From Sipunculus nudus (lineage: Eukaryota > Annelida > Sipuncula > Golfingiida > Sipunculidae), in the NCBI GenBank assembly GCA_026874595.1, contig CM049319.1:67299917-67363916 (forward strand): DNA of 64,000 nt, read 5' to 3'. Below are positions 13,738 to 62,777 of the stretch, in pieces. Every line of letters begins with the position of its first letter. Within the stretch, counting starts at the first letter, position 1. Made by a program: the position numbers and the translations under genes. The notes beneath the pieces were generated by a model that saw only the letters and a program-made list of their open reading frames with translations, did no database searches and was not told the origin of the DNA.

Positions 13738-16497
13738 CACATGTCCACTCCTCTAGGTGGCAGTCTTAACACTCAATGCGATGCTACCACAAATTTTACC
13801 CCCTCCCGAATTTTTAGGGTACCAAATAGCTTGTATTTCCGCGTGCGATTCATGGGGCCACTGTGGCCGGCCGCTCACATGTCCACTCATCTTGGTGGCA
13901 GTCTTGACACTCAATGCGACGCTACCATAAATTTAACCCCTCCCGAATTTTTAGGGTACCAAATAGCTAGTATTCCCGCGTGCGATTCATGGGGCCACTA
14001 TGGCGGACGGCTCACAAGTCCACTCCTCTTGGTGGCAGCCTTAACACTCAATGCGATGCTACCATAAATTTTACCCCCTCCCGAATTTTTAGGCTACCAA
14101 ATGGCTAGTATTTCCGCGTGCGATTCATTGGGCCACTGTGGCGGGCCGCTCACATGTCCACTCCTCTTGGTGGCAGTCTTAACACTCAATGCGATGCTAC
14201 CATAAATTTTAACCCCCTCCCGAATAGCTAGTATTTCCGCGTGCGATTCATGTGGCCAATGTGGCGGGCCGCTCACATGTCCACTCCTCTTGGTGGCAGC
14301 CTTAACACTCAATGCGATGCTACCATAAATTTTGCCCTCTCCCGAATTTTGGGGTACCAAATACTTAGTATTTCCGCGTGCGATTCATTAGGCCACTGTG
14401 GCGGGCCGCTTACATGTCCACTCCTCTTGGTGGCAGCCTTAACACTCAATGCGATGCTACCATAAATTTTACCCCCTCCCGAATTTTTAGGGTACCAAAT
14501 AGCTAGCATTTCCGTGTGCGATTCATGGGGCCTCTGTGGCGGGCCGCTCACATGTCCACTCCTCTTGGTGGCAGTCTTAACACTTAATGCCATGCTACCA
14601 TAAATTTTACCCCCTTCCGATTTTATAGGGTACCAGATAGCTAGTACTTCCGTGTGCGATTCATGGGGCCACTGTGGCGGGCCGCTCACATGTCCACTCC
14701 TCTTGGTCGCAGTCTTAACACTCAATGCGATGCTACCATAAATATTTTTCCCCCTCCCGAATTTTTAGGGTACCAAATAGCTAGTTTTTCCGCGTGAGAT
14801 TTATGGGGCCACTGTAGCGGGCCGCTCACATGCTCACTCCTCTTCGTGGCAGTCTTAACACTCAATGCGATGCTACCATAATTTTTACCCCCTCCCGAAT
14901 TTTTGGGGTACCAAATAGCTAGTATTTCCGCATGCGATTCATGGGGCCACTGTGGCGGACCACTCATATGTCCACTCCTCTTGGTGGCAGCATTAACACT
15001 CAATGCGATGCTACCATAAATTTTACCCCCTCCCGATTTTTTAGGTTACCAAATAGCTAGTATTTCCGCGTGCGATTCATTGGGCCACTGTGGCGGGCTG
15101 CTCACATGTCCACTCCTCTTGGTGGCAGTCTTAACACTCAATGCGATGCTACCAAAAATTTTACCCCCTCCGGAATTTTTAGGGTACCAAATAGCTAGTA
15201 TATCCGCGTGCGATTCATGGGGCCACTGTGGCGGGCCGCTCACATGTCCACTCCTCTAGGTGGCAGTCTTAACACTCAATGCGATGCTACCACAAATTTT
15301 ACCCCCTCCCGAATTTTTAGGGTACCAAATAGCTTGTATTTCCGCGTGCGATTCATGGGGCCACTGTGGCCGGCCGCTCACATGTCCACTCATCTTGGTG
15401 GCAGTCTTGACACTCAATGCGACGCTACCATAAATTTAACCCCTCCCGAATTTTAAGGGTACCAAATAGCTAGTATTCCCGCGTGCGATTCATGGGGCCA
15501 CTATGGCGGACCGCTCACAAGTCCACTCCTCTTGGTGGCAGCCTTAACACTCAATGCGATGCTACCATAAATTTTACCCCCTCCCGAATTTTTAGGCTAC
15601 CAAATGGCTAGTATTTCCGCGTGCGATTCATTGGGCCACTGTGGCGGGCCGCTCACATGTCCACTCCTCTTGGTGGCAGTCTTAACACTCAATGCGATGC
15701 TACCATAAATTTTACCCCCTCCCGAATTTTTAGGGTACCAAATAGCTAGTATTTCCCCGTGCGATTCATGGGGCCACTGTGGCGGGCCGCTCACATGTCC
15801 ACTCCTCTTGGTGGCATTCTTAACACTCAATGCGATGCTACCATAAATTTTACCCCCTCCCGAATTTTTAGGGTACCAAATAGCTAGTATTTCCGCGTGC
15901 GATTCATGTGGCCAATGTGGCGGGCCGCTCACATGTCCTCTCCTCTTGGTGGTAGTCCTAACACTCATTGCGATGCTACCATAAATTTAACCCCTCCCGA
16001 ATTTGTAGGGTACCAAATAGCTAGTATTTCCGCGTGCGATTCATGGGGCCATTGTGGCGGGCCGCTCACATGTCCACTCCTCTTGGTGGCAGTCTTAACA
16101 CTCAATGCGATGCTACCATAAATTTTACCCCCTCCCGAATTTTTAGGGTACCAAATAGCTAGTATTTCCCCGTGCGACTCATGGAGCCACTGTGGCGGGC
16201 CGCTCACATGTCCACTCCTCTTGGTGGCAGTCTTAACACTCAATGCGATGCTACCATGAATTTTACCCCCTCCCGAATTTTTAGGGTACCAAATAGCTAG
16301 TATTTCCGCGTGCGATTCATGGGGCCACTGTGGCGGGCCGCTCACGTGTCCACTCCTCTTGGTGGCAGCCGTAACACTCAATGCGATGCTACCATAAATT
16401 TTACCCCCTCCCGAATTTTTAGGGTACCAAATAGCTGCTATTTGCGCGTGCGACTCATGGGGCCTCTGTGGCGGGCCGCTCACATGTCCACTCCCCC
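13737..16497. repeat. 138-bp satellite array, about 20 monomers
   Basis: Monomers share 'gctcacatgtccactcctcttggtgg'-type heads (shortened here), 'cactcaatgcgatgctacc', 'ccccctcccgaatttttaggg' variants and 'ggggccactgtggcgg'. The unit is 138 bp, so minus-strand frames run across several monomers with a 46-residue repeat; each breaks where monomers carry indels. Some variants recur 1503 bp apart (13738 and 15241), showing higher-order structure. Non-coding satellite. Confidence 0.93.
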
Positions 16498-19054: not shown

Positions 19055-21560
19055 ATCATCAGCTCCCACTACTGCCACCGTTATCACTACTGCCACAGTA
19101 ATCAGTACCGCCACCGTTATCACTACTGCTAGAGTTATCACTACTGCCACCGTTATCACTAGTGCCACCGTTCTCACTACTGCCACAGTTATCAGTACTG
19201 CCACCGTTACCACTACTGCCACAGATATCAGCACTGCCACCATTATCACTAGTGCCACCGTTATCACTACTGCTACAGTTATCAGTACTGCCACCGTTAT
19301 CACTAGTGCCTATGTTATCACTACTGCCACAGTTATCAGTACTGGCACCGTTATCACTACTCCCACAGTTATCACTACTGCCACCGTTATCACTACTCCC
19401 ACAGTTATCAGTACTGGCACCGTTATCACTACTGCCACCGTTATCAGTACTGCCACAGTTATCACTACTGCCACAGTTATTAGTACTGTCATAGTTAGCA
19501 CTAAGGCCACCGTTATCACTACTGGCACAGTTATCAGTACTGGCACCGTTATCACTACTGCCACAGTTATCACTACTGCCACCGTTATCGCTACTGCCAC
19601 CGTTATCACTACTGCCACAGTTATCAGTACTGGCACCGTTATCACTACTGCCACCGTTATCACTACTGGCACCGTTATCACTACTGCCACTGTCATCACT
19701 ACTGCCACAGTTATCAGTACTGGCACCATTTTCACTACTACCAGCGTTAATTATCACTACTGCAACAGTTATCAGTACTGGCAGAATTATCACTACTGCC
19801 ACAGTTATCAGTATTGCCACCGTTGTCACTACTGCCACCGTTATCACTACTGCAACAGTTATCAGTACCGGCACCGTTATCACTAGCGCCACCGTTATCA
19901 CTTCTGCCACATTTATCAGTACTGGCACCGTTATCACTACTGCCACTGTTATCACTACTGTCGCAGTTATCACTCTGCCACCTTTATCACTACTGCCACC
20001 GTTATCACTACTGGCACCGTTATCACAACTGCCACAGTTATCAGTACTGTCACGGTTATCACTAGTGCCACCGTTATCACTACTGCCACAGTTATCACTA
20101 CTGCCACTGTTATCACTACTGTCACCGTTATCAGTACTGGCACCTTTATCAGTACTGGCACCGTTATCACTACTGCCACCGTTATCACTACTGTCACCGT
20201 TATTACTTCTGCCACCTTTATCACAACTGCCACCGTAATCACTACTGGCACCGTTATCACTACTGCCACAGTTATCAGTAATGGCATGGTTACCACTAGT
20301 GCCACCTTTATCACTTCTGCCAAAGTTATCAGTACTGCCACCATTATGACTAGTGCCACCGTTATCATTACTGCCACCGTTATCACTACTTCCACCTTTA
20401 TCACTAAAACCACCGTTATCAGTACTGGCACCGTTATCACTACTGCCACCGTTATCACTACTGGCACCGTTATCACTACTGCCACCGTTATCATTAATGC
20501 CACAGTTATCACTACTGCCACACTTATCAGTACTGGCACCGTTATAACTAGTGCCACCGTTATCACTACTACCACAGTTATCACTACTGCCACCGTTAAC
20601 ACTATTGCCACCTTTATCACTAAAGCCACCGTTATCAGTACTGGCACCGTTATCACTACTGCCACCGTTATCACTACTGGCACCATTATCACTACTGCCA
20701 CTGTTATCACTACTGCCACAGTTATAAGTACTGGCACCTTTATCGCTACAGCCACCTTTATCACTACTGGAACCTTTATCACTACTGGCACCGTTATCAC
20801 TAGTGCCACCATTATAGCTACTGCCACAGTTATCAGTACTGGCACCGTTATCACTACTGCCACAGTTATCAGTACTGGCACCGTTATCACTGCTGCCACC
20901 GTTTTCACTACTGCCACCTTTATCACTACTGCCACAGTTATCAGTACTGGCACGGTTATCACTGCTGCCACCGTTATCACTACTGCCACCTTTATCACTA
21001 CTGCCACAGTTATCAGTACTGGCAGCGTTATCACTAGTGCCACCGTTATCACTACTGCCACAGTTATCAGTACTGGCACCGTTATCACTACTGCCACAGT
21101 TATCACTACTGCCACAGTAATCACTACAGCCTTCGTTATCACTACTAGCACCGTTATCACTACTGTCACAGTTATCAGTACTGCCACCGTTATCACTAGT
21201 GCCACCGTTATCACTACTGCTACAGCTATGAGTACTAGCACCGTTATCACTAGTGCCACCGTTATCACTACTGCCACAGTTATCACTACTGCCACCCGTA
21301 TCACTACTGCCACCCGTATCTCTACTGCCACAGTTATCACTACTGCCACAGTTATCACTACTGCCACCGTTATCACTACTGCCACAGTTATCAGTACTGG
21401 CACCGTTATCACTAGTGCCACCGTTATCACTATTGCCACAGTTATCAGTACATGCACCCTTATCACTACTGCCACAATTATCACTTCTGCCACAGTTATC
21501 AGGACTGGCACCGTTGTCAGTACTGGCACCGTTATCAGTACTGGCAACGTTACCATTTCT
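19055..21560. repeat. 18-bp minisatellite, about 139 units
   Basis: Variants of GTTATCACTACTGCCACC repeat for 2.5 kb. Unit variants alternate (actgcc/actggc, caccg/cacag, tcact/tcagt), hinting at 36- or 54-bp higher-order units. Because 18 is a multiple of 3 and the unit lacks stops, several frames are open. The longest is 875 codons on the minus strand (19059-21686), a hexapeptide repeat of SSDNGG/STDNCG type; another is an alternating V/A/T-I repeat on the plus strand. The minus frame has no signal peptide or flanking domain. I treat it as a minisatellite, with a small chance of a low-complexity Ser/Asp/Asn/Gly protein. Confidence 0.92.
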
Positions 21561-32600: not shown

Positions 32601-33060
32601 CTAATAAGAGGAAAAGCTATTTTGTCCATCGAATGTGTGAGTTTCCGTGCAAATCAAAGCGGGAAAGAACACGCATATAGCAATGGCAGGTTTGTTTCCG
32701 GTAAATACAGGCTCGTGTTCGTCGTGTTGGTCCATTAACATCATTGTTCCCTCGCCATCAGCATTGTGGGTAAAATCTTGTCTCGACTGCCCGTCGTTCC
32801 AAATATACGCACCCCTACCATCAACCCAGTATACACTCTCTTTGTGGAATCTATACGCCAAACGTGCCGAACAATTTGGATTGGCCAACGTATTGTGTAT
32901 ACTGACGTTGAATCCGTCTTGTCTGGCCAAGAATCGTCGGCTGCGGCCTCTTTTCCAATCTACATCTCTCTCCGAACCGAACACCTCCGATAACCGCCGA
33001 TATAAAGGTTCGGTAGCTTTCGGCTCACCTTCGGTAGGGATCGTATACACGATATAAAAC
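32601..33060 (-). pseudogene. ectoine synthase-like double-cupin gene, 3' part (C-terminal EctC half)
   Basis: The 151 codons after the insertion point (first YIVYTIPTEG, stop TAG at 32601-32603) match the ectoine synthase (EctC) family along most of its length: GRSRRFLARQDGFNVSIHNT, HKESVYWVDGRG, GEGTMMLMDQHDEH, AICVFFP, CTETHTFDG. EctC closes N-gamma-acetyl-diaminobutyrate to ectoine, a compatible solute, in the cytosol. Counting from the first codon here, Glu73 and His114 correspond to two iron ligands of EctC. The third, a Tyr, corresponds to Met106. Cys128, Phe130, Glu138 and His140 keep the conserved C-terminal pattern. The upstream half of the same frame lies at 43350-43670, beyond a retrotransposon. 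Family assignment is strong; catalytic activity is uncertain, and this copy is physically interrupted. Confidence 0.82.
33057..33060. other. target-site duplication AAAC, left copy
   Basis: AAAC lies directly before the TG of the 5' LTR and is repeated directly after the CA of the 3' LTR (43350-43353). Removing one copy with the element restores an open frame across the site. Confidence 0.9.
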
Positions 33061-33286
33061 TGTGGACGTAGGTCTCGTGCATAAAGCCTCCACGAATCGC
33101 CAGGAGCACCTCCGGCTTTTGGTGTGCCATGTGCCATGTGAATCTGAGGCGAGAAGTGACCCGAGACGTCAGACGGAACCAGAAACCCACCTCGAACGGA
33201 CGACCACCTGCTGGAGACTGAAGTTACCCATTTCCACGGCGGGACAAGTCGAACTCCGTACTGGTGAGTACTGGTTCACTACTACA
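33061..33286 (+). repeat. 5' LTR (226 bp)
   Basis: Begins TGTGGACG and ends ACTACTACA. It is identical in length to the 3' LTR and differs at 6 positions by eye. It contains a TATA-like 'gcataaag' at 33079-33086 and a GTGAGT donor-like site at 33264-33269 that the 3' LTR lacks. Confidence 0.95.
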
Positions 33287-33288
33287 AA

Positions 33289-33299
33289 TGGCGACGAAG
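33289..33299 (+). promoter_or_regulatory. primer-binding site
   Basis: TGGCGACGAAG starts two bases after the LTR. TGG is the complement of the tRNA CCA end. From memory, the next bases fit the acceptor end of an animal tRNA-Ser (GCU type), matching about nine positions. Existence of a PBS here is secure by position; the primer identity is inference. Confidence 0.7.
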
Positions 33300-34645
33300 C
33301 TTGTTTTGCTGTGTAGTGTTTCTTTGCTGTTTCCGACACTTCGCGCGGCGGCTATTTCGCTTCCACGTGCGGTTTGTTGGATCCTCGCCCTCATTCCTTT
33401 TCGCTTTTTCCCTGTTCCTGCTTCATATATATATATTTTTTGTGGTTATTTTTGTTCCTTGCTTCCCGCTCCGTTTTCCTGTTTGCGCATTCTTCCCCTT
33501 TTATGGTGCTTTACTCTTGTTCTCTCCCCCCCCCCCCCGCCCGGTAGTTTTGGTTTTTTGTTTGCTTTGTGGCCCTCGGCCTTTTCCCGACTCGCCCTTT
33601 GCCTTTTCGGCCCGCCTCGTTTCTTGTTTGGCAGGGTTGTTCGTTTCTTGTTTGGCGGGGTTGTTCGTCTTTTTGCGTTTTGTTGCCTATTTCTTTGGCC
33701 TTGGGTGCCGTTTTATGGGCTTTTTGCTTGCTCTCTGTGTGTTTTTGTGTCTGTTTGCGGGCTTGCGCCGTTTTGGGTTTGTGGCCCTATTTCGATTTTG
33801 TGACGTTCCGCGGGTGCTGCCTCCTGGCGGCGGTTTGTGTAACTAATTTTTTTTTTCCATTTTGTGTTTGGGTTGGCTCTGTTTTGTGTGCTGCCCTCTG
33901 CCGGTGTTTGGTACTACTATTTGTGGTTCTGTTTTTTTTTTTTTTTTTCTTGTGTCGCTGCTGCCGTCTGGTGTTGATTTTGTGTACTTTTCTGTGGTTG
34001 TTTTCTTTTGACTTGTTTGCTCTGTTTCTTTTCCTGTTTTTTTTTTTTTTGGGGGGGGGGGGGCTTTTGTTTCTTTTCTTTTGTCTTTTGTTTTTTTTGT
34101 GGTTTTTGCTGGGTTTTTTTGTGTTTTTGGTATTTTTTTGCGGTGGCCTTCTTCATATTTTTTTAAGGGTGTCTCCTTCCTTTTGTTTTTGGGGAGGTGT
34201 GTGGGTGCATGTATTTTGGTCTGGTATCTATGCTTCTTGACGGTGTTCCTTTGGACTTTTCGTGTTGTACTGCTGGTTGCTGACTTGTTTGGTGCCTTTT
34301 TGGCGGAGTTAATGTAGTTTTTTTGCATGTGATCTTGTTCTACACAGTTTGTGTGTTTCCCTGTTTCTGCGTGCATGCTTTATTGTGCTTATGCCCTGCA
34401 TGCTTTATAGTGCATTTTGACTTTTGTTTGCTCTGGGTTTTCCTATATGTTTATGGTTGGGTTGTGCATGTGTGTTGTATTTTGCTGAGTTACATATTGT
34501 ATTTTTTGTTGTTTTGTTCCATTGTCTTACTGCTCGTCTTTTTGACTTGTAATTAGACTTTGTTGCCTTGCCTTTGTGTATCACTGCTGCTTTGTTTTTT
34601 ATTTGGGGGCTCTTTGGGTATACATCCTGTTTGTTTTCCCTTTGA
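33300..34645 (+). other. A-depleted, T/G-rich leader of the retrotransposon
   Basis: About 1.35 kb between the PBS and the gag ATG. The plus strand is T- and G-rich with long T runs (near 33933-33950, 34040-34052), a poly-C run (33529-33539) and a poly-G run (34051-34063), and very few A residues. Long plus-strand open frames (33264-33803, 33569-34240) are a by-product of A scarcity and encode only F/L/C/V-rich low complexity; I do not call them genes. Confidence 0.75.
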
Positions 34646-36577
34646 ATGGCGCTCAATTTGTGTACAGCCAGCTTTAGTGATATGGTTGCATGTTTGCCTT
34701 TTGCTTTGACATGTGACCCTGCTAGGGTTATTGTCGCTTTTCGTGAGTCCCACCCCGGTCTTGATGTTTTGGACTTGGAGCGTTTGGCGGGCTACCCAGC
34801 TTCGGGTTGGTCGAAGTTGTTGCATGATCGGTTCATTGTTCTCGATCCTATTGTTGAGCGAGGTGCTGGTTCTAGCCATGATGAGGGGGGTCCGCCCTTT
34901 CCATCTTCCCCCTCTGGTGGTTACGGCCTCGCGGGTGGCCGCCCTGATGGACCGAAGCGGAGTCCATCTTTTCAGGAGGGGGGTGACCCAGATAGGGGCA
35001 TACATCGGATTATGTCTGTTCTGCCAGTGGATGACATTTATCCTCCTGGTTCGTATGAGCGTACTCGTAATCAGTCCTTTGGTCCTATGTATGGTTACTC
35101 TGACCACAAGTCTGTTCATGCTGCACCATGGCCGCCGATGGATCAGAAGGAAAGTCGCTCGCGGGGACCTGCCAATTATCCTGCCGTTGAGCGCCCGCAT
35201 CGCCTTCCACGGTACGCCGACACTCACCATGGAAAGTGCTACCCTTCTTGTCGATCCGACCGCTATGATGGGCCTTATACTCATGAGCCAGATCGGAAGC
35301 CCGTTCTTGAGCGAGTGAGCCGTCGTGTGGCTGCGGACGACAGGAGACGGTGTTCCCGTCGGGAGTCTTCCTCTTCCGTTTCACCGGATGATTATGGACA
35401 ATATCATTGTGAGGAGTACCGTCGCCCTCCTGAGAATTGGGAAAGGCGAAGGCATTACAGGCAGAGACCTGTAAAGTCCGAAAAACATCATGACCGTGAA
35501 CTTGTGTCTTATGGTGTAGACCAGGACCGAGATTATCGGCATAACCAAAGGACAGTCAAGAGTAACCGATACGATACCTATAAACAAGGTCGAGACAAGT
35601 ATCCAGGCAGGCGAAGACAGCGACGTGATAACAGTTCCTCGTCAAGAAGCTCAAGCAGTTCCGGGAGTGATAGTTCGCCTGAGAGGAGCCACCGACCACG
35701 TAGGCATAGAGGTAAGAGCCCTCCCCCTCCTAAACTGCCCATCTTCAATGGAAATAATTCTTTGCTCGACTTTATCTATCAGCTGGAAAGATATGCTGAC
35801 ATATATGCCTGGTCTAGTCGCAAAAAGGCAGAAAGGTTACTTGACTCATTGAGCGGCAAGGCTCTTGAGTATGTCCGGGAATTACATGTGGGTAATCATT
35901 TTGAGACCCTGAAGGAAAAATTATCAAGACGTTTTGGAGTCAAGGATGCGCCCATAATAGTCGGGAGAGGACTCCCTTTTGTGAAACAAGAGGAACACGA
36001 ATCCTTGGAAGAATTTGGTCAGAGGGTGAACTTCCAGGTGATGGATGGTTTTCCTGGCGCTCATGAGCAAACCATCGAACAGATTAGTGTTGAACACTTT
36101 CTCAAAGGTTGTGTAGATAAACGTGCAGCTGCTGTTGCTATGGATAAAAACCCAAAGCAACTTTACAAAACTATCAAGTATGTGAAAGCAGCCATTAACA
36201 ATCGAAAAGCAATATATGGTAGAACTCCGAGCCAGTCCACTGTTAGAAAAGTCAGTTTCGCTAACCCTGACCTCCACCCATGTGATGAGTCCGATCTCGA
36301 AATCAGAGTAGCGGGAGTTGCCACAGACACTCAGCGACAGAGTAAGTTTGAAAAAGAAATAACTCAACGTATGGAAGGGCTTGAGTTAATGATGAAACAA
36401 CTACTGAGATCCCGTACACCACCCAGATCAAGGTCTCCCTCAACTCCTCCAAGGTCACCTCAAACTTCCACTTGTTTTGGTTGTAATCAGAAAGGACATT
36501 TTGAAAGGGACTGTCCGAACACGAATAAAATGACACAGAAAAGATCATCAGAGGGAAATCTACATTTAAAAGCTTAA
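34646..36577 (+). CDS. gag: Gag polyprotein
   Basis: 643 codons from ATG 34646 to TAA 36575-36577. An N-terminal region of about 100 residues is followed by a long basic, Arg/His/Ser-rich segment (about 100-360). Next is a capsid-like helical region starting near LPIFNGNNSLLDFIYQLERY (Ty3 Gag style), then an SR-like stretch. A CCHC zinc knuckle has Cys610, Cys613, His618 and Cys623. Gag forms the virus-like particle and binds the RNA. No stop or frameshift interrupts it. The extra-long basic region makes it larger than most Ty3-type Gags. Pol overlaps its end in the -1 frame. Confidence 0.9.
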   Translation: MALNLCTASFSDMVACLPFALTCDPARVIVAFRESHPGLDVLDLERLAGYPASGWSKLLHDRFIVLDPIVERGAGSSHDEGGPPFPSSPSGGYGLAGGRPDGPKRSPSFQEGGDPDRGIHRIMSVLPVDDIYPPGSYERTRNQSFGPMYGYSDHKSVHAAPWPPMDQKESRSRGPANYPAVERPHRLPRYADTHHGKCYPSCRSDRYDGPYTHEPDRKPVLERVSRRVAADDRRRCSRRESSSSVSPDDYGQYHCEEYRRPPENWERRRHYRQRPVKSEKHHDRELVSYGVDQDRDYRHNQRTVKSNRYDTYKQGRDKYPGRRRQRRDNSSSSRSSSSSGSDSSPERSHRPRRHRGKSPPPPKLPIFNGNNSLLDFIYQLERYADIYAWSSRKKAERLLDSLSGKALEYVRELHVGNHFETLKEKLSRRFGVKDAPIIVGRGLPFVKQEEHESLEEFGQRVNFQVMDGFPGAHEQTIEQISVEHFLKGCVDKRAAAVAMDKNPKQLYKTIKYVKAAINNRKAIYGRTPSQSTVRKVSFANPDLHPCDESDLEIRVAGVATDTQRQSKFEKEITQRMEGLELMMKQLLRSRTPPRSRSPSTPPRSPQTSTCFGCNQKGHFERDCPNTNKMTQKRSSEGNLHLKA

Positions 36578-36626
36578 GGGGTGTTACTATTGGCCATGGC
36601 TTCACCCCGGACATAGGCTTGGGCCA
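36565..36626 (+). promoter_or_regulatory. programmed -1 frameshift signal (slippery site plus potential pseudoknot)
   Basis: T TTA AAA (36565-36571, spaced in the gag frame) fits the X XXY YYZ rule and lies one codon before the gag stop. Six bases later GGGGTG (36578-36583) can pair perfectly with CACCCC (36603-36608). The loop's TGGCC (36591-36595) can pair with GGCCA (36622-36626), forming an H-type pseudoknot. Slipping -1 enters the pol frame, which is open from well upstream of this point. Pairings were found by eye; function is inferred from the known mechanism. Confidence 0.75.
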
Positions 36627-38577
36627 TTCTTCAATATCAGGACATCAACTCCAAGTAAGTCATGCCCCAACAGTCACTGATTTACCACAGTCAATAATAC
36701 CAGGTAAGAGTTCTTGCACTGTAGATAGCTCAGTATTGTCTGGGGATACAGTAACTGTTAACGCCGTTAGCTTCACGGAATTGATAACTCCATCAGATCC
36801 AGACATGGTCCCATTAGTTGATTTGAGAGAGGAAACTCATAAACCGGTCAATGAATCTGATAGAGAATTCGATCAGGAAGATGTTGCACTCTCCATCACA
36901 GATCCCCCTTTTAAAGAATGTGAAATTGCTAGTACCGGTAACTCTGAGTCAGAAATCTTTATAAGGAAAAGTGAGGGCTTAAGCTTAATCGTGCCAATCC
37001 AAGTCAATGGCATAGCAACTGAAGCAGTTGTTGATAGTGCTGCCCAAGTCACCGTAATTAGTGAAGAACTGATCCATTCCTTACCAGGGGACATTCAAGT
37101 TACAGGTACCTCTTCACTTCGTGGGATTGGGGGACCGGAAGCCTGTATTCCTGCCCAAAAGGTTTCCGGATTGCAAGTCACATTGGGGTCTAAGACTTAT
37201 CCCTGTACTGCTTTTGTTGCCAAAGTGGCCGATCCTATCCTTCTTGGTTTGGATTTCCTCATTGATATCAAGTGCAGTGTGGATTTTGCAAATAGTAAAA
37301 TAACATTACCTGATGAGTGCATCTCTGCTTCCTTAAAAGAAAATGTCTCAAATAGCTCTGAATTAAACTTTGAGGTAGTGGCTACAAGATCCATTGTTTG
37401 CCCTCCTAACACAAAACTATTGATACCTGTTAGAGTAAATGGGTCTGATACTTTTCAATATGTCGTGGAACCAAAGAATGAGATAGATGGATTATTAATA
37501 GCCCGTACCATCATTAACCAGTCTGGATATTTGGATGTCCTGAATGACACAGATAGGTATATGTCCATTAAACATAACCAACCAGGGGGGTCAGCAGTAG
37601 AACTGATTGAGGTTATCACTCAGGAACCATCAAGCATCAGGTCTGCTTGTCTGGGTCCGGCAGAGGAGGGTACTGGGGCGGCTAGCAAGCTAACTCGAGT
37701 GCCTCCTTCTGCTTCAAGCCCTCTGAGCATTCCTGATCACTTGACTGACTTATTTGAAAGAGCAAACAGAAACCTACCAGATAAACATGTTACACCTCTT
37801 AGCAATTTTCTGATAGAATATCAGGATGTATTTGCTCAACATGATCTTGATCTTGGATGTCTATCCGAGATCAAACATAAGATAGACACTGGTGATGCTT
37901 TACCTGTTCGCCAACGCATGAGGAAAACTCCTCTAGGATTTGAGCAGGAAGAGGAGAAACATCTTAATAAGATGCTTGCCGCAGGTGTGATTAGACCATC
38001 GGAATCCGACTGGGCATCAGCACCAGTGTTAGTCCGGAAGCGTGACGGAGGGGTACGTTGGTGCATTGACTATCGTGCATTGAATGAAAAAACAGTAAAA
38101 GACAAGTACCCCTTACTGGATACTCTCTCAGGGACTAAGTATTTTAGCACACTAGATATGGCTTCAGGTTATTACCAAATCCAGCTCGATGAGGATTCCC
38201 CAAAGAAGACCGCCTTTGTTACCAAATACGGACTGTACGAACATACTCGTATGGGGTTCGGACTTTGCAACGCGCCCGCAACCTTCCAACGCGCAATGAA
38301 CCTAGTACTGCGTGGATTAACTTGGTCTGAAGTTTTAGTATATCTAGATGACATCATAGTTTTAGGAGCGACTTTTGAGGAACATTTGAGTAGCCTCAAG
38401 AAGGTACTTGAACGGATGAGAGGGTACCACCTGAAACTCAAGCCCCAAAAATGTGTATTATTGCAAAGGCAAGTTGAGTTTTTGGGTAGGACGGTAAGTC
38501 ATCAGGGTATATCTATTTCACCTGGGAAAGCAGATGCTATAAAGGAATGGCCAGTTCCATCCACTCGGAAGGAATAA
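36572..38577 (+). pseudogene. pol: Pol, first part: protease and reverse transcriptase
   Basis: The frame, -1 to gag, runs to an in-frame TAA at 38575-38577. There is no ATG need if made by frameshifting. An aspartic protease motif VVDSAAQ has the catalytic Asp at 37033-37035, with the flap/IIG-like LLGLDF at 37241-37258. RT blocks follow: SDWASAPVLVRKRDGG, RWCIDYRALN, STLDMASGYYQI, FGLCNAPATFQRAM, and catalytic YLDD at 38341-38352. The stop falls in the RT-connection segment just before YLGYMNYHRAH; the same frame continues after it. It is most simply a nonsense mutation in this copy. Confidence 0.9.
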
Positions 38578-41160
38578 GAGGCTTATCTGGGTTATATGAA
38601 CTATCATAGGGCTCACGTCCAGGGATATGCTGGGATAACTGCCTGCCTATATGAGCTGACTAAACCCAAGAGTGTGTTTGTATGGGATGAAGAGCATCAA
38701 GTAGCTTTTGAACATCTAAAGGATGTTTTGAGCTCCGCACCCTGTTTAGCATTTCCTAATCCGACAGGCACTTTCATATTAGATTGTGACGCGTCTGAGA
38801 AGGCCATTGGTGCAGATTTATCCCAGTTGCAGGGCGATGAGGAACGCACTATTGCTTACGCAAGTAATGTCCTACTTGCCCCTCATCGACGTTACTGTAC
38901 AACTAGAAAAGAATTGCTCGCAGTTGTGAAATTCTGCAGACAATTTCGTCATTATCTCCTTGGTAAGCCTTTCATTGTGCGAACCGATCATAATAGTCTA
39001 GCTTGGCTAATGAGGTTCAAACATATCGAGGGCCAGCGATCAAGGTGGATTGAGGAATTGTCACAATACAATTTCACAATAGTGCATAGAGCGGGATCGA
39101 AACATAGCAATGCTGATGGCCTATCACGAATTCCAGACACATTAACACAATGCAATTGCTATGAGGCAGGGCTAAAGCTTGAAGCCTTACCCTGTGGTGG
39201 TTGTAAGTACTGTAAAAGAGCTCATGAACAATGGTCAAGCTTCAGTGAAGACGTGGATGATGTGATTCCTTTAGCCCTGAATCGCCCTACTCAATTGGCT
39301 CAACCAGATCCTATGTATCTCCTGCGGCCGGCAGTGCTGTCTGCAGGGGCTTCATCTGATCTGGACTATGGGGATACAGAAATTCAGGAGCCTGATCATC
39401 TGAGTGCTCCAATTGGTCCTATGTATCTCCTGCGGCCGGCAGCGCTGTCTGCAGGACCTACGTCGGATCAGGAGCCTCGAGATGTTCTAAATGACCAAGC
39501 TATTAGTAGTCCTCCTACTGATAACGTTGCTGGCAGTTCTTGTTACTCCAGTAACTGGACAGATAGCTATTCACAGGAACACATTTGTAAGTTGCAACAT
39601 GAAGATCCTGATATAGGTCCCGTTCTTTTGTGGATGGAGGACGGGGGGCCGCCTCAGGGCGAGCTGTTCTGTAAAAGTCCTGCAACCAAATATCTATGGT
39701 TAAATAGGGATCACCTGGATATCATAAATGGTATTTTGTATTATACAAGGTTTATAGAAAAAGACTCAACCTTTCAGCACTGTTTAGTGGTCCCAGCAAC
39801 CCTCCGAGGCGAAGTGTTCGCTTTCTGTCATGACCTGAAATCGTCTGGGCATTTGGGAAGGGACATTACTATGCGTCGTTTGCAAAAAGCTTTCTTTTGG
39901 TACCAAATGGCAAAAGACGCTGATCTATACATTAAAACTTGTGACACCTGTAACAAAAACAAAAGGCCAGTCAAGAAGGCCAGGTCTGGTCTGGAAATAT
40001 ATCAAGCAGGTTTTCCCATGGAGAGAATTCATATTGACATTTTGGGTCCTTTCAACCAGAGTAGGGATCGGAACCGTTACATATTAATGGTTTATGACCA
40101 ATTTTCAAAATGGCTAGAGTGTTTCCAAATTCCAAATCAATCTGCGGAAATAGTGGCAGAAACTCTCGTAATGAAATTCTTTGCTATTTTTGGTTGTCCG
40201 TTTGAAATCCATTCTGACCAGGGACAAAACTTTGAGTCTAATTTATTTACGGCCCTGTGTAAAGTTTTAGGCATCTCCAAAACCAGAACAACCCCTTACC
40301 ACCCAGCATCAAACGGACAAGTAGAACGCCAGAACAGGACAATATTGCAAATGATCCGTTGTTACCTTGAGAATGACCTGCATACGTGGGATAGAGATCT
40401 ACCCCTCTTGACCATGGCCCTCCATTCAGCCGTTAACAGAAGTACAGGTTTCACACCTAATGAAATTATGCTGGGACGGGAAGTCTTACAACCTATAGAT
40501 ATGCTAATGAAACTCTTACCAAGGACACCTAAAACAGAATACACTGATACATGGGTCCAGGATTTAAGAAACCGCATGACCCAAATACATCATCAGGTTA
40601 GGAAACAGCTAAAGACCAGTCTAATCCATCAGAAGAGGGATTACGACCTCAGGAAGAAGGAATCACTGTCCGATCCAGGTGATCTTGTTTATCTGCGCAA
40701 TAGGGTCACCAAAAAAGGCCAATGTCCGAAATTACAGGCCATATGGAAGGGTCCATATCTTGTGATTACTTGCAGACATCCGATCTACAAAGTCAGGACA
40801 AAGAAACAGGATAAATTTATACATCATGACAACATGAAATTGTGCGAAGATCGAAACATACCATTATGGCTGCGTAGGGCCCGTAACAAGTTATGGTCAG
40901 AATTAAGCCCTGATGATGGTGAAGAGGTTTGGGCCGGCAGTCCTGAACCCACCCATCTTCAACCACCTACTATCTCCACTTCTGAATCTGACTCCCACAA
41001 TAAGCAGGATCACAGAGCCCCTGGTAATACTGGTCAGGCTGAAACGATCTGGGACTTTCCTGACAATGATGATGACCTGACTCTACATAGTCCTACGATA
41101 ACAACCTCTAAAGGTAGGAAGGTCCGTAGGCCGGCATATTTAAAAGATTATACTACATAA
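38578..41160 (+). pseudogene. pol: Pol, second part: RNase H and integrase
   Basis: This is in the same frame as the first part, separated only by the TAA. RNase H motifs are FILDCDASEKAIGADLSQ, RKELLAVV and RTDHNSLAWL. The integrase zinc module has the His pair around GHLGRD and CDTCNK (39940 on). The catalytic core Asp at 40036-40038, Asp at 40216-40218 and Glu at 40324-40326 keep the D,D(35)E spacing. The C-terminal module shows IWKGPYLVI (GPY/F). No chromodomain follows; the tail is acidic and low complexity. It contains a duplicated 'PMYLLRPA.LSAG' segment at 39311-39350 and 39419-39455. TAA at 41158-41160. Confidence 0.92.
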
Positions 41161-41219
41161 GCTTATATGCATGTGTTAGTTTAAGGGGTTCTTATGCACG
41201 AATGCACTATCGTAGTTAA

Positions 41220-41804
41220 GGTTTTACTATTGTCTCATTGTGGGGCCAGGGGTCCGTACTCATTATTTCAGATAGAGTTAGGGCAGAGTTGGATTCATTC
41301 TCCGAAGCTTTGTTTGTCCCGGATTATGAAGAGGAAAGTCAGGGTGGTGATGATGATGATATACCCTGTGAGAGTAAAGTGTCCTCGGAGGCGAAGGTAA
41401 GATTCTTACCTAATCCTGGAGAAGAGGAAATGATGCCAGAGGTACGATCTAGGGGGTCTCAACGAACAGCTCCTGCTGGAAGGCCCAGGTGGCGGCCGAA
41501 AGCTTGCAGTTTATGTGGACTGGATAAACTGAAACATCTGGGTCGCCACATCATTAAGACCCACCTTCCATGGTGGCTATACATTGAAACAGCATGTTGG
41601 GTCTGCCGAAAACAGGAAGCCTGTAACAACGCTACCTCCAAGTTCCATTCCCATGTAAGTCTAATGGGGAATCTAGGGCCCAACTGTAAGTCTGAGTGGC
41701 AGGAGTGGGTTAGGGGTCTGTTGCGTTGGCTAGCAGATTCTCTCGGTCTACAGACCCTGGAGGAATTGCCAAACTTTGTGGCCCGAGAAGACCTGTATAT
41801 ATAG
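41220..41804 (+). CDS. ORF3, N-terminal part: acidic region and Cys/His zinc-finger-like domain
   Basis: The frame is open from 41220. The first ATG is at 41430; alternatively an acceptor 'cattatttcag' (AG at 41270-41271) could feed a spliced RNA. It encodes an acidic stretch (EEESQGGDDDDIP), then a basic segment, then ACSLCGLDKLKHLGRHIIKTH (C-x2-C ... H-x4-H, finger-like). A second Cys pair CWVC with HSHVS follows. It ends at TAG 41802-41804. The frame continues directly into the TatD-like coding region, so this is probably the first half of one protein. Confidence 0.65.
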   Translation, partial: GFTIVSLWGQGSVLIISDRVRAELDSFSEALFVPDYEEESQGGDDDDIPCESKVSSEAKVRFLPNPGEEEMMPEVRSRGSQRTAPAGRPRWRPKACSLCGLDKLKHLGRHIIKTHLPWWLYIETACWVCRKQEACNNATSKFHSHVSLMGNLGPNCKSEWQEWVRGLLRWLADSLGLQTLEELPNFVAREDLYI

Positions 41805-42794
41805 GACCCGTCCCCCACCAAGTTTCCGTATCTCCTGAATGCTTATTTCTTGGAGTTATCCCGCCTACAACGATGGGACGTGCCAGAGGAAGAAATCCAG
41901 TTCAGACCACCTAATACCATTGTGGCCGTTTTGCATTGGGAGGTTCTCTCCCGGATACTTGAGCGTCTACCATCCGCCAAGAAAGCTGAGGTATGTTCCT
42001 TACAACAGAAAGCCGAAGTAATTGACTCCCATGCCCATTTAGACCGGTTGTTTAGGATACACCATATAAGTTCACTAGATCAGTACAAGGCCAAATCAAC
42101 CCAAGTCGAACTGCGCGGGGTCGTAGCCAATTTTGTTTATCCTGGAAGCTGGAATCTGTACCATCAGGTAAGCTCTAGCCCTTTGATCAAGTGTACTTTT
42201 GGTTTACACCCCAGGTCCATCAAATCAGCACGTGACATCCAAAAGAGAATAACTGAACTGGATGGTTTTATGTCAACACCACAGTGCGTTGGATTAGGCG
42301 AAATCGGTATGGAGCATACCAAAGTCAAGCCCTATCTCATTGGAATTCAACTCCAATTCCTAAGAGAAGCTTTCCGTCTCTTCAAAAAGCACACCAACGT
42401 GCGGGTCCTGATACTCCACTGCAGGGATGCAGGCACCGGTGAAGCCGCTAGGCAAACCCTACGCATGATCATAGAAGAGGGCATCACAGAGCGCAGAATC
42501 CACAGACACTGTCTTTCTGGAACCGTAGCAGAATTGGAGGAGTGGTCAAGGGTTCTTCCTAACTGTCATTTTGGCTTCACGGAAACCCTATTCCGTAGCA
42601 ACAATATCACACCGGCAGTCGCTCATGTGAACATGGACAGGATATTGTTAGAGTCAGACTGTCCTTATCTATCTGACTCTCCTTGGGACATCCTTCCCGT
42701 TGCCTACCGAGTGGCAACCATTCGTGACCTCTCGCTATCTAATGTGTTAGCTCATTGTAACCGGAATGCTTCAGCCCTATATGGACCATTTTAA
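41805..42794 (+). CDS. ORF3, C-terminal part: TatD-family metal-dependent nuclease
   Basis: Same frame as the zinc-finger part, after one TAG. From DSHAHLD (near 42022-42042) the order is FGLHPR, GLGEIGMEH, LILHCRDAG, HRHCLSGT and LLESDCPYL, the full set of TatD signatures. The metal-binding HxH, Glu, His, His and Asp are all present. TatD proteins are TIM-barrel DNases/hydrolases. About 255 residues from the first motif to the end is normal for the family. TAA at 42792-42794. The location between integrase and the 3' LTR makes it part of the retrotransposon, not a host gene. If translated separately there is no in-frame ATG right after the TAG, which argues for readthrough or a nonsense mutation. 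Confidence 0.85.
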   Translation, partial: DPSPTKFPYLLNAYFLELSRLQRWDVPEEEIQFRPPNTIVAVLHWEVLSRILERLPSAKKAEVCSLQQKAEVIDSHAHLDRLFRIHHISSLDQYKAKSTQVELRGVVANFVYPGSWNLYHQVSSSPLIKCTFGLHPRSIKSARDIQKRITELDGFMSTPQCVGLGEIGMEHTKVKPYLIGIQLQFLREAFRLFKKHTNVRVLILHCRDAGTGEAARQTLRMIIEEGITERRIHRHCLSGTVAELEEWSRVLPNCHFGFTETLFRSNNITPAVAHVNMDRILLESDCPYLSDSPWDILPVAYRVATIRDLSLSNVLAHCNRNASALYGPF

Positions 42795-43109
42795 TGTGTT
42801 ATTATGATGTATGTTCTTAACATTCCTGTATTGTGTTATGGTGATTTGTTCACTTTTGGCACGGTTGGCGGCCAGGCGTGCTTCCACTATGCCATTCTGG
42901 GGATAATTCTCTGTAACACTTCGGGGTTTGTTACGTTCATGTTTATATATGATTTCCTGTTTCTAGTTAGTTTAACTTTTTCACTTTTAATGTCATTTTC
43001 TTGAAGTGTTCTAGTGTCATACACTAGAAGGTATACACGATTTAAGCGTTCTGGTAAACAGTGATTTATCCCTAGGCTCCTATATTAATGTTAAGGTGAC
43101 CGAGTCAAG
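42795..43109 (+). other. 3' untranslated region of the retrotransposon
   Basis: T-rich non-coding sequence between ORF3 and the polypurine tract. No env-like frame. Confidence 0.6.
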
Positions 43110-43123
43110 AAAACGGGGAGGAA
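43110..43123 (+). promoter_or_regulatory. polypurine tract
   Basis: AAAACGGGGAGGAA, almost all purine, lies directly against the 3' LTR, the position of the plus-strand primer. Confidence 0.85.
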
Positions 43124-43349
43124 TGTGGACGTAGGTCTCGTGCATAAAGCCTCCACGAATCGCCAGGAGCACCTCCGGCTTTTGGTGTGCCATGTGCCTT
43201 GTGAATCTGAGGCGAGAAGTGACCCGAGACGTCAGACGGAACCAGAAACCCACCTCGAACGGACGACTACCTGCTGGAGACTGAAGTTACCCACTTCCAC
43301 GGCGGGACAAGTCGAACTCCGTACTGGTGTGTGTTGGTTCACTACTACA
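43124..43349 (+). repeat. 3' LTR (226 bp)
   Basis: Starts TGTGGACG, ends ACTACTACA, same length as the 5' copy, 6 substitutions, no indels by eye. The GTGAGT of the 5' LTR reads GTGTGT here. Confidence 0.95.
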
Positions 43350-43353
43350 AAAC
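43350..43353. other. target-site duplication AAAC, right copy
   Basis: Matches 33057-33060; a 4-bp duplication is usual for Ty3/gypsy integrases. Confidence 0.9.
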
Positions 43354-43670
43354 CACGAATCAGCCGTTGCTGCGACGTCAGCGTCCATTTGGCCAGTCAG
43401 AGCTAAAACCTCGTCACTTGCAACCGTAAAACAACGAACGCTGCCATCTTCTAAACGCAATTCAATGTCGGCGTTCCCATTCAGGCAATAGTAAATATGA
43501 TTCCACTCGCTACCTTTGACATCCCTTAAATGACTCAGCGTCTTGCCCTTTGGGATTTTTACATCATAAGTCACGTGACCTACAGAATCCTGCTCCGACA
43601 CCAGCTCAATGCCTTCAAGTTTAGTGTCCTTGCCAAAGGTCAAGGCCGGATTGTGAACTGACTCTTGTTT
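43350..43670 (-). pseudogene. ectoine synthase-like double-cupin gene, 5' part (N-terminal cupin half)
   Basis: The frame reads on the minus strand through FGKDTKLEGIELVSEQDS, VTYDVKIPKGKT, NHIYYCLNGNADIEL and SDEVLALTGQ to ATADSWF at the insertion site, then continues in the same frame at 33060 if one AAAC copy is removed. It parallels EctC (small-residue turn, YC.NG.A.IE, then a final hydrophobic strand), so it looks like a degenerate second EctC-type cupin. There is no ATG in this piece. The frame is open only to 43670, so an upstream exon or a frameshift near 43645-43680 must be invoked; 'atttcag' at 43687-43681 is a good acceptor but leaves a frame conflict. Confidence 0.75.
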
Positions 43671-43869
43671 TCATTGTAATCTGAAATGATCAAAAACCTG
43701 GACTGTTAGATTACATATATTAAATATGATGGTATATTAAACAAGATATTTTACTATACTTTACTTTACTATACTATACTAAACTATACTTTTCTTTTGT
43801 TTTATATCAAATTACATTAAACTATAAATGTTATATTATAAAATAATCAATGCATTTTAATTTCATTAC

Positions 43870-43977
43870 CTTTAGGTTTCGTGCACGCCTCGTGGCACTC
43901 TTCAGGTAAATGAGTTGTGTTGGTTTGTTACAGGTAAACTGAGCCTCGTGTTTGTCGTGTAGGACAAAGGAACACAT
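43870..43977 (-). CDS. possible first exon of the EctC-like gene
   Basis: On the minus strand an ATG with A at -3 opens MCSFVLHDKHEAQFTCNKPT and runs 36 codons to a good donor (AAAG|GTAATG, GT at 43869-43868) in phase 0. The same frame is open upstream to 44052 and is Cys-rich. The orientation and position just upstream of the EctC-like N-terminal piece make it a candidate 5' exon, but the join to 43670 relies on a weak acceptor. It may belong to another gene or be chance. Confidence 0.2.
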
Positions 43978-44117
43978 TTTGGTTCCTTGACAAATGCCAT
44001 ATCGTGTACAGGAAAAGTGCGGGTAGGTAAAATAATGCGTTGTTGTAATTTATGCACTCATGTCATCCACTGTTTTGTGTACACTGTCTTTGTATTTGAT
44101 CCTGGAACAAAACAAAA

Positions 44118-49584: not shown

Positions 49585-51180
49585 TAGGAATAACACCAGG
49601 TAACATTGATATTTATAACACCGGGTAACTTCGAAATAACACCCGGTGACATCGCAATACAATCGACGGCTAACATTGGAATAACAAAAGGTAACATCGC
49701 AAAAACGCCGGGTTACATTGAAATAACACGTGGTAATATCGCAATAATACCGGGAAACTGCGAAATAACACCCGGTAAAATCGCAATAACGCCGGGTTAC
49801 ATAGGTAAAACAATAACACCAGAAAACATCGAAATAACACCCGGTAACATCGTAATAAGGCCGGGTAACATCGGAATAACACCCGGTAACATCGCAATAA
49901 TACCGGGAAACTGCGAAATAACACCCGGTAAAATCGCAATAACGCCGGGTTACATAGGTATAACAATAACACCGGAAAAGATCGAAATAACACCCGGTAA
50001 CATCGTAATAAGGCCGGGTTACATCGGAATAACACCCCGTAACATCGCAATAATACCGGGAAACTGAGAAATAACACCCGGTAAAATCGCAATAACGCCG
50101 GGTTACATAGGTATAACAATAACACCGGAAAACATCGAAATAACACCCGGTAACATCGTAATAAGGCCGGGTTACATCGGAATAACACCCGGTAACATCG
50201 CAATAATACAGGGAACCATCGAAATAACACCCGGTAACATCGAAATAAGGCCGGGTTACATCGGAATAACACCCGGTAACATCGCAATAATACAGGGAAC
50301 CATCGAAAAAACACCCGGTAACATCGTAATAAGGCCGGGTTACATCGGAATAACACCCGGTAACATCGCAATAATACAGGGAACCATCGAAATAACACCC
50401 GGTAACATCGTAATAAGGCCGGGTTACATCGGAATAACACCCGGTAACATCGCAATAATACAGGGAACCATCGAAATAACACCCGGTAACATCGTAATAA
50501 GGCCGGGTTACATCGGAATAACACCCGGTAACATCGCAATAATACCGGGAAACTGCGAAATAATACCCGGTAAAATCGCAATAACGCCGGGTAACATAGG
50601 TATAACAATAACACCGGAAAACATCGAAATAAGACCCGGTAACATCGTAATAAGGCCGGGTTACATCGGAATAACACCCGGTAACATCGCAATAATACCG
50701 GGAAACTGAGAAATAACACCCGGTAAAATCGCAATAACGCCGGGTTACCTAGGTATAACAATAACACCGGAAAACATCGAAATAACACCCGGTAACATCG
50801 TAATAAGGCCGGGTTACATCGGAATAACACCCGGTAACATCGCAATAATACAGGGAACCATCGAAATAACACCCGGTAACATCGTAATAAGGCCGGGTTA
50901 CAACGGAATAACACCCGGTAACATCGCAATGACACAGGGAACCATCGAAATAACACCCGGTAACATCGTATTAAGGCCGGGTTACATCGAAATAACACTC
51001 CCGATAACATCGCAATAACACATGGTTACATCGGAATAACACCCGGTAACATCGCAATAACACCGGGAAACATCGAAATAACACACCGGTAACATCGCAA
51101 TAACTTCGGGTTACACTGGAAATAACACCAGGTTACATCAGAATAAGACAAATTAACATCGTAATAACACTCAACTAGAT
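49585..51180. repeat. 21-bp minisatellite with 84-bp higher-order units
   Basis: Units such as AACATCGGAATAACACCCGGT repeat for 1.6 kb. Four variants (gaaataacaccc / gtaataaggccg / ggaataacaccc / gcaataatacag) cycle as an ~84-bp higher-order repeat in the middle; some cycles contain an inserted 'gtataacaat' variant. 21 is divisible by 3, which creates a 446-codon minus-strand frame and a 153-codon plus-strand frame; both are repeat artefacts in my judgement. The same unit family reappears at 59966-60330 and 62098-62465. Confidence 0.92.
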
Positions 51181-59143: not shown

Positions 59144-60641
59144 TTGTATTTCATCAGGTCTTTTAGGTTAAAATCTTTCTTTTTGTATTTTAAAGGCGGT
59201 AAATGTCATTGTAAATAAACTATATCTGTTATATATAGAGGGTGAGGGAAGTTCCCTGCCATGACTACTGTTTATGTCACACGTTCAACTGATCTTCTAT
59301 AAAGACAGTTAAGAAAACAATATATGCAATCTGAATTTATGAAATTAATTGCAGGTTAGTAAATTTTTCTGAAATAAAATTGCGAGAAGTGCAGAAAAAA
59401 ATCCATGATTTTAAAGCTTTATAAAATGCAGTAAATTCATGAATTAATTGATCCTTATTTCAGCTGTTTTCCCCAGTATCACCTGGTTAATGGTTATACA
59501 GTTTACCTGACACAGTGTCACAATATTGCTCTTGACACAGCGCTTTATCTTGATCTATTGTTTAGAAGCTTTAGTTTTTTCCTCTCCCTCGGGAGTGTAA
59601 AGTGATCATGCATGCAGGCTGATAACCAATTTTAAGGCCAATTGATTTCATTGTTGTGTAATATGGCACAAATGTCAATGGTCGTCATTATCATACAAAG
59701 CTTGTCTAAACCGAGCCGCTGTTTGACGTGTTACGGCATATTTATTCGTCAGTTTAAATTACAGTCATAGATAAATTTGTCTGTATCCTGTTCTACCACA
59801 TGGGGTCCACTCAAACCCATTTGTGTTTCGATGTGTTCCGATGTGTAACGGATGCCCCCCCCCCCCCCCGAAGTGTACCGATGTCCCCCAGATTGTACGG
59901 CCCTGATTCCGCAAGTTTGATCATGCTCCTCAACATGCTCCCAGGAAACATTATTACTGGCAAATATCGGAATAAAACAGTTTAACATCAAAATAACACC
60001 GGTTAATATCGGAAAAACACTGAATAATATCCATATAACAACGGGTAACATCGGAATAAAACCGAGTAAGATCGCAATTAAACCGGGTAACATCGATATA
60101 ATACCGGGAAACATAGGAATAATTCCGGTAAACATCGGGATAACACCGTTAAACATGGCAATAACACAGGGTAACATCGCAATAACCTCGGGTAACATCG
60201 GAATAACACCGGGTAACATCGGAATAACACCGGGTAACATCGGAATAACACCAGGTAACATTGGAATTACACCGTGAATTATCGAAATAACATCGGGGAA
60301 ACATTGGTGTAACATCGTGATTACGGCTGCGTAACATGATTAACATCGATGTGACTTGTCCTTTACAGTGTCTGTACTAAGCAGAGAAATATACATTATG
60401 GTTAAAAACAGCAGATGTTTATATTATTGTTCATGAAATCATTTATTGATTCACCCAAATAAGAGAGTTTGTTTTTTTCAGCTGTCACGGGGGATTGTCT
60501 TCAATCATTTACAATACATCATGAATAGAGGCTAGATTAGAACCCTACTGATTTTTATAGAAACGTATATAATATTTAATCTAAGATACGGTAATCAGAA
60601 TTTGTAATTGTGCATTATAAATGTAATCATAGTTTCTTATC

Positions 60642-61278: not shown

Positions 61279-62777
61279 TTGTATTTCATCAGGTCTTTTA
61301 GGTTAAAATCTTTCTTTTTGTATTTTAAAGGCGGTAAATGTCATTGTAAATAAACTATATCTGTTATATATAGAGGGTGAGGGAAGTTCCCTGCCATGAC
61401 TACTGTTTATGTCACACGTTCAACTGATCTTCTATAAAGACAGTTAAGAAAACAATATATGCAATCTGAATTTATGAAATTAATTGCAGGTTAGTAAATT
61501 TTTCTGAAATAAAATTGCGAGAAGTGCAGAAAAAAATCCATGATTTTAAAGCTTTATAAAATGCAGTAAATTCATGAATTAATTGATCCTTATTTCAGCT
61601 GTTTTCCCCAGTATCACCTGGTTAATGGTTATACAGTTTACCTGACACAGTGTCACAATATTGCTCTTGACACAGCGCTTTATCTTGATCTATTGTTTAG
61701 AAGCTTTAGTTTTTTCCTCTCCCTCGGGAGTGTAAAGTGATCGTGCATGCAGGCTGATAACCAATTTTAAGGCCAATTGATTTCATTGTTGTGTAATATG
61801 GCACAAATGTCAATGGTCGTCATTATCATACAAAGCTTGTCTAAACCGAGCCGCTGTTTGACGTGTTACGGCATATTTATTCGTCAGTTTAAATTACAGT
61901 CATAGATAAATTTGTCTGTATCCTGTTCTACCACATGGGGTCCACTCAAACCCATTTGTGTTTCGATGTGTTCCGATGTGTAACGGATGCCCCCCCCCCC
62001 CCCCCGAAGTGTACCGATGTCCCCCAGATTGTACGGCCCTGATTCCGCAAGTTTGATCATGCTCCTCAACATGCTCCCAGGAAACATTATTACTGGCAAA
62101 TATCGGAATAAAACAGTTTAACATCAAAATAACACCGGTTAATATCGGAAAAACACTGAATAATATCCATATAACAACGGGTAACATCGGAATAAAACCG
62201 AGTAAGATCGCAATTAAACCGGGTAACATCGATATAATACCGGGAAACATAGGAATAATTCCGGTAAACATCGGGATAACACCGTTAAACATGGCAATAA
62301 CACAGGGTAACATCGCAATAACCTCGGGTAACATCGGAATAACACCGGGTAACATCGGAATAACACCGGGTAACATCGGAATAACACCAGGTAACATTGG
62401 AATTACACCGTGAATTATCGAAATAACATCGGGGAAACATTGGTGTAACATCGTGATTACGGCTGCGTAACATGATTAACATCGATGTGACTTGTCCTTT
62501 ACAGTGTCTGTACTAAGCAGAGAAATATACATTATGGTTAAAAACAGCAGATGTTTATATTATTGTTCATGAAATCATTTATTGATTCACCCAAATAAGA
62601 GAGTTTGTTTTTTTCAGCTGTCACGGGGGATTGTCTTCAATCATTTACAATACATCATGAATAGAGGCTAGATTAGAACCCTACTGATTTTTATAGAAAC
62701 GTATATAATATTTAATCTAAGATACGGTAATCAGAATTTGTAATTGTGCATTATAAATGTAATCATAGTTTCTTATC

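Follow-up and report, generated by a model that had tools for sequence, protein, structure and literature searches.

In the available excerpts of PMC5924519, ectoine synthase (EctC) is described as the diagnostic enzyme for ectoine producers, and the same source has already proposed that solitary EctC may serve another function. EctC relatives in animals are already known as well: EctA- and EctC-related sequences are mentioned for Branchiostoma and Saccoglossus (Harding et al., as cited in excerpts of PMC5924519 and PMC5796728), and the Pfam family of EctC, PF06339, is listed for the corals Seriatopora and Favites in the accessible part of PMC11639872. Within the accessible portions of the open-licence literature searched, no report was found of an EctC in bicupin form or with a lost Tyr ligand. 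The locus described here is an EctC-like gene of Sipunculus nudus. It lies in a window of 64,000 nucleotides, the whole stretch of DNA that was analysed (assembly GCA_026874595.1, 1.43 Gb; contig CM049319.1, here C14, positions 67,299,917-67,363,916). The product of this gene is a 260-residue protein with two cupin domains (a bicupin) and belongs to a small eukaryotic family. The reading that we prefer, at a probability of roughly 0.7, is that the window holds a broken member of this family, which would derive from a bacterial EctC-like gene through ancient transfer, internal duplication and a change of the active site. The gene and a neighbouring remnant are laid out as follows (window coordinates):

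32604-33060, minus strand: C-terminal cupin half, EctC-type (PF06339), with the stop codon at 32601-32603
43350-43671, minus strand: N-terminal cupin half, degenerate EctC-like, without the EctC metal ligands (alignment and profile matches)
43648-43674, minus strand: start block MKTRVSSQ with its ATG at 43672-43674, out of frame here and in frame in three other copies
43922-44093, minus strand: degraded 3' portion of a further EctC-like copy, a short way upstream of the gene (alignment)

The C-terminal piece belongs to PF06339 (Ectoine_synth) by a match of 68.3 bits over a cut-off of 27 (E 9.8e-19), and it also matches the solved ectoine synthase 5onm of P. lautus (E 7.8e-11). The N-terminal piece (43350-43671) has no Pfam match by itself. 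In an alignment with the N-terminal half of P0001, a relative introduced below, 38% of 84 columns are identical (E 4e-14), and the profile of the N-terminal cupin family matches EctC (hhalign, 95.8%; PDB entry 5ono, E 2.8e-7). These matches bear out the two halves picked out by an earlier, sequence-only reading, which had proposed EctC-type motifs on the minus strand at 32601-33060 and a cupin-like continuation at 43350-43670. Its further claim that the halves join in the same frame holds: when the flanks are joined by script without the insert, the frame is open across the junction, and an empty copy exists on contig C6. The start block needs a correction, as it is frame-shifted. MKTRVSSQ is out of frame because of a small deletion near the start relative to the copy at C6:67,129,732, as the alignment of the flanks shows. 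A gene intact but for its insert is ruled out, since the conserved start sits in another frame. The Pfam match (1e-18), the open copies elsewhere in the genome and the relatives rule out a chance open frame. The remnant upstream scores 83 in alignment, and the best of 200 shuffles scores 52.

PF06339 is found at four places in the genome (66.4-73.1 bits), namely in the window, at C14:67,366,503 (minus strand), at C6:67,112,038 (plus strand) and at C6:67,129,732 (plus strand). All three copies outside the window read through in frame from the conserved start, and their frames stay open over both cupins for 259-260 residues from the conserved Met. The closest to the window gene is the type B copy at C6:67,129,732, with 97% identity over 127 columns of the C domain. 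The joined window flanks align to it straight through the insertion point (2,420 columns, 95.9%), so that a natural empty-site copy with an open frame is present on C6. Between the coding pieces of the window and of this copy there are nine differences, five of them on the window branch and four of those protein-changing, all small numbers. The ratio of nonsynonymous to synonymous substitution rates (dN/dS) is 0.24 for type A against type B copies and 0.41 between the two type A copies, values that point to purifying selection between the paralogues. Contaminant DNA is ruled out by the 68-Mb contig with its eukaryotic repeats and by the spread of the four copies over two large contigs, and the gene stands, as first proposed, as an EctC relative in a eukaryotic genome.

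Searching with the joined, read-through sequence gave P0001 (258 residues, E 6.4e-40, 95% covered) and P0002, and an alignment search extended the set to 20 proteins at E <= 0.001. P0001-P0012 have two cupins or look like parts of such proteins, and the layout is common to those that are complete; P0013-P0019 are single-domain proteins of 125-131 residues. The start of the family is conserved (MKIRVCSQ in P0001, MKARVVSQ in P0006, MKTRVSSQ in the window). The structure model of P0006 consists of two barrels, with a predicted local distance difference test score of 91.5 and a predicted template modelling score of 0.90. The bicupin relatives appear to be eukaryotic, judging from the shared layout and from contigs of up to 1.04 Mb. 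A protein search with the C-terminal piece only gave eight candidates, none at E <= 0.001. Two short patterns of the bicupin C domain, scanned over 84,980 prokaryotic species with a single genome apiece, gave 45 pattern matches and none confirmed by tblastn, which is weak evidence of absence; viral contigs scanned with the alignment of the bicupin C domain gave 41 pattern matches, none of them confirmed.

A tree with bacterial EctC was built from 90 extracted loci, from which loci more than 75% identical to a kept row were dropped, as were P0020 and, for their incomplete C domains, P0008, P0009 and P0011, leaving 51 rows. The terms canonical-type and solitary-type are sequence-based labels. 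The ten bicupin rows form one clade (support 100/99), which stands beside the single-domain protein P0017 (97/93) among the solitary-type rows, with the canonical-type rows in another clade (100/95). A 59-row tree that includes the copies from the S. nudus genome gives the same result (100/100 and 98/91). The bicupins form one clade, placed beside solitary-type EctC although the data do not reject other positions, and bacterial ancestry of the family is likely. The earlier suggestion of horizontal acquisition or an under-described animal family survives to that extent: the family is under-described, but EctC relatives of animals had already been published in the sources cited above.

The ligand of EctC that the bicupins lack is the Tyr. 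The equivalent of Tyr-84 is present in all 41 single-domain rows and in none of the 10 second cupins of the bicupin rows, which comprise the window gene and nine relatives; in the window its position is taken by Met. The equivalents of Glu-57 and His-92 are kept in the second cupin of 10/10 bicupin rows, and the first cupin has no EctC-type metal ligands. The trio of Glu, Tyr and His expected of a bona fide EctC is therefore incomplete, and the match to the NCBI subfamily of ectoine synthases, NF009806, falls short of its cut-off (73.6 against 128 bits). A shifted-Trp motif, W-x-x-G-x-S, occurs in 35/35 solitary-type rows, in eight of the ten bicupin rows and in none of the six canonical-type rows, and it is present in the window. 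The two exceptions among the bicupins are P0006, which has an insertion there, and P0010, which has no Trp.

The gene neighbourhoods of solitary-type EctC were surveyed at 80 of 266 confirmed bacterial loci, those closest to P0015, with flanks of up to 6 kb. None of these 80 has a match to EctA or EctB at E <= 1e-10. The same queries recovered all four annotated ectABC loci used as a control (L081-L083 and L089, the last of which was not a source of the queries). Among the six canonical-type rows, L082, L083 and L089 adjoin ectA and ectB, and L088 has neither in its annotated flanks. The neighbours in the best 80 of the 266 loci include an acyl-CoA dehydrogenase (62/80), an AMP ligase (62/80; both together in 59/80), a carrier protein (60/80), a ketosynthase (34/80) and genes of tryptophan type (38/80), and 13/80 match none of the queries. 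The solitary-type genes L001-L080, L084 and L085 (Actinomycetota, Pseudomonadota and others) often lie in what looks like a biosynthetic cluster, one that lacks EctA and EctB. The literature searched yielded no description of an ectoine synthase linked with tryptophan-type and acyl-CoA dehydrogenase genes.

The rest of the ectoine pathway was sought in the S. nudus assembly. An exon-wise, six-frame search of the whole assembly, bacterial-looking contigs included, gave no EctA match at E <= 0.001. For EctB there are 34 matches, the best at 177.8 bits and none above the cut-off of 552.2. Contigs C60-C136 hold most of them (29/34), in bacterial-looking open frames of 409-479 residues, some of which recur in identical copies; a further two are exon-sized matches on C1. 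The long uninterrupted aminotransferase genes of bacterial type on these small contigs (L113-L120) suggest that C60-C136 are symbiont or contaminant genomes. Within the limits of the exon-wise search, neither the host nor the bacterial-looking contigs show an ectoine pathway. Ectoine synthesis, the function that the name ectoine synthase-like in the sequence-only reading had implied, is not supported, in view of the lost Tyr ligand, the missed subfamily cut-off, the lack of EctA matches and the lack of EctB matches above the cut-off.

The history that we propose would begin with an ancient horizontal transfer of a bacterial EctC-like gene to eukaryotes, both the transfer and its donor being inferred. 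An internal duplication would then have placed two cupins in one open frame, and the active site of the second cupin would have been altered, with Glu and His kept and Tyr lost. In the intact proteins, the C-terminal barrel may bind a metal, probably Fe2+, through this Glu and His, and it might catalyse the cyclisation, dehydration or hydrolysis of a small amino-acid-derived substrate; both suggestions come from residues only. The N-terminal cupin could act as a structural partner that replaces the second EctC subunit. The window copy is broken by the frame-shifting deletion and by the Ty3-type insertion, with open copies persisting elsewhere. We give even odds to a more ambitious version, in which one ancient transfer would have led to a new eukaryotic bicupin enzyme that has a rebuilt metal site and acts on a new substrate; it would have spread over many lineages, been tandemly duplicated and been kept by selection, without any link to ectoine.

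Several observations weigh against this history. An approximately unbiased (AU) test leaves a grouping of the bicupins with canonical EctC unrejected (p 0.357 with 51 rows, p 0.084 with 59), the bicupin stem is long, and long branches may pull; the sister P0017 is single-domain, with the Tyr kept and the Glu and His ligands gone. The donor is unsure because of the non-rejecting AU test, the long stem and this odd sister. Residue 38 is His in 9/10 bicupin and 4/6 canonical-type rows and in 0/35 solitary-type rows, and the profile of the N-terminal cupin gives no match (0.4%) with A2, the small profile of the bicupin C-terminal cupins. Other points favour a different function, in which the intact copies would be working ectoine synthases fed with N-gamma-acetyl-diaminobutyrate from diet or symbionts and would supply an osmoprotectant without EctA and EctB of the animal's own. 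Membership in PF06339 and the bacterial-looking contigs of the assembly fit this, and the substrate-contact positions are mostly kept in the ten bicupin rows (Ser-23 in 10, Arg-25 in 9, Thr-40 in 10, Tyr-52 in 9, Glu-57 in 10, Phe-106 in 9 plus one gap). According to excerpts of PMC5924519, moreover, the solitary EctC of P. syringae gave ectoine in an H. elongata ectC mutant, and the exon-wise search could miss an EctA gene split into small exons. The loss of the Tyr iron ligand in all ten bicupin rows speaks to both sides: the Tyr-84 to Ala variant of P. lautus EctC is left with 15.1% activity (accessible part of PMC6344544), which counts against a working synthase, but this residual activity means that slow ectoine formation is possible. 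Together with the missed subfamily cut-off and the EctA and EctB results, the lost ligand makes a diet- or symbiont-fed synthase unlikely in our view. It is more probable that the family is an altered enzyme with a bacterial origin than that it makes ectoine, and the intact bicupins are probably not ectoine synthases.

Less probable still is a function like that of (S)-ureidoglycine aminohydrolase, acting on ureides or other nitrogen-rich small molecules. The bicupin fold that suggests it is common, and a shared fold is no proof of function; identity to the (S)-ureidoglycine aminohydrolase rows is only 12-16%, and the hmmscan matches for P0001, P0002 and the window pieces are limited to Ectoine_synth, plus a weak Cupin_2 match for the C-terminal window piece. 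EctC chains are absent from the best 50 rows of the structure search, which is uninformative on the family, as whole-length bicupins rank first. A question compatible with any of these functions is whether the window and C6 copies are alleles, the end of C14 being a retained alternative haplotype and the individual heterozygous for the insertion. Blocks common to both contigs, inverted in order, extend over ~60 kb on C14 and 39 kb on C6; the longest reach 92-96% identity, others fall as low as 80%, and indels are numerous. The gene flanks differ by 2.7% substitutions, and type A precedes type B on both contigs. But the copies lie in opposite orientation, both contigs are large (C14 68.3 Mb, C6 88.9 Mb), and nothing in the 80 kb of C6 compared matches positions 1-22471 of the window. 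Matches to CDC45 were confined to one place (two exon matches on C7, with 66/176 candidates scored). Although this is a single gene, the result suggests that the assembly is haploid and that the copies are two loci. A haplotype may nevertheless have been retained close to the end of C14, and we hold the allelic explanation tentatively, at somewhat below even chances. Of the disrupted allele claimed in the sequence-only reading, the disruption and the existence of an empty-site copy stand, but allelism is unproven and the C6 copy is perhaps a duplicated locus.

The element that splits the gene has the following parts (ORF, open reading frame):

33061-43349, plus strand, opposite to the gene: Ty3-type long terminal repeat (LTR) retrotransposon, 10,289 bp (LTRs, target duplication and domains)
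33061-33286, plus strand: 5' LTR, 226 bp, with TG...CA ends
43124-43349, plus strand: 3' LTR, 226 bp, with TG...CA ends and 6 mismatches to the 5' LTR
33057-33060, no strand: left copy of the target-site duplication AAAC (repeat of the flank)
43350-43353, no strand: right copy of the target-site duplication AAAC (repeat of the flank)
34646-36577, plus strand: gag-like ORF (PNMA and zinc-knuckle matches, both weak and under the cut-offs)
36529-41160, plus strand: pol, with protease, reverse transcriptase, RNase H and integrase in that order (domain matches)
41805-42794, plus strand: ORF for a TatD-type DNase, within the element and downstream of pol (117.5 bits)

It is of Ty3 type by its TG...CA LTRs, its short target duplication and the order of its pol domains, and its pol frame is interrupted by a single stop, at 38575. 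No published pairing of a Ty3/LTR retrotransposon with TatD was found among the papers listed by the searches. The insertion is an ordinary gene-breaking event. The two LTRs differ at 6/226 positions, or 2.7% (95% confidence interval 1.0-5.7%), and the window flanks differ from the C6 copy by 102 substitutions in 3,720 aligned bases, which is 2.7% as well. On these figures the insertion is not clearly a later event than the separation of the C14 and C6 copies. The gene is indeed split by an LTR element, as had been claimed, but that the element is young is not established.

The rest of the window is rich in repeats of other kinds. A tandem array of ~20 copies of a 138-bp unit lies at 13732-16494, and minisatellites with 18-bp and 42-bp units, at 19067-21552 and 49615-51170, contain long ORFs on both strands. 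The stretches 59749-60339 and 61900-62475 are near-identical, ~2.1 kb apart and hold a 21-bp minisatellite; another copy of this type runs from the window end past it (63406-64491, coordinates continued). Scans of the 64-kb window for tRNAs and with Rfam gave 0 and 0 matches. A search for molluscan haemocyanin likewise gave 0 matches, with no signal from a control either.

Given eukaryotic EctC relatives whose metal site has changed, in a genome with no EctA detected and no EctB above the cut-off, a PF06339 match in an animal should not be taken to indicate ectoine synthesis. What the family indicates is an enzyme of bacterial origin that has yet to be characterised, and the intact paralogues make the question testable through one small protein. 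With ectoine synthase itself (PF06339; P. lautus 5onm), the bicupins share the cupin family by sequence, the Glu and His iron ligands and several substrate contacts. They differ from it in a length of ~260 instead of ~130 residues, the lost Tyr ligand, the shifted Trp and a genome with no detected EctA and no EctB over the cut-off. The solitary-type bacterial proteins are the nearest group in the tree and have the same shifted-Trp motif, but they are single-domain and keep the Tyr ligand in 35/35 rows. The Branchiostoma, Saccoglossus and coral sequences likewise belong to the EctC family in animals; the accessible parts of their sources describe no bicupin layout or ligand loss. Finally, the (S)-ureidoglycine aminohydrolase family (DUF861 bicupins) resembles the modelled P0006 in its overall predicted bicupin fold; sequence identity is 12-16%, and the window pieces, P0001 and P0002 have no match to a profile of that family.

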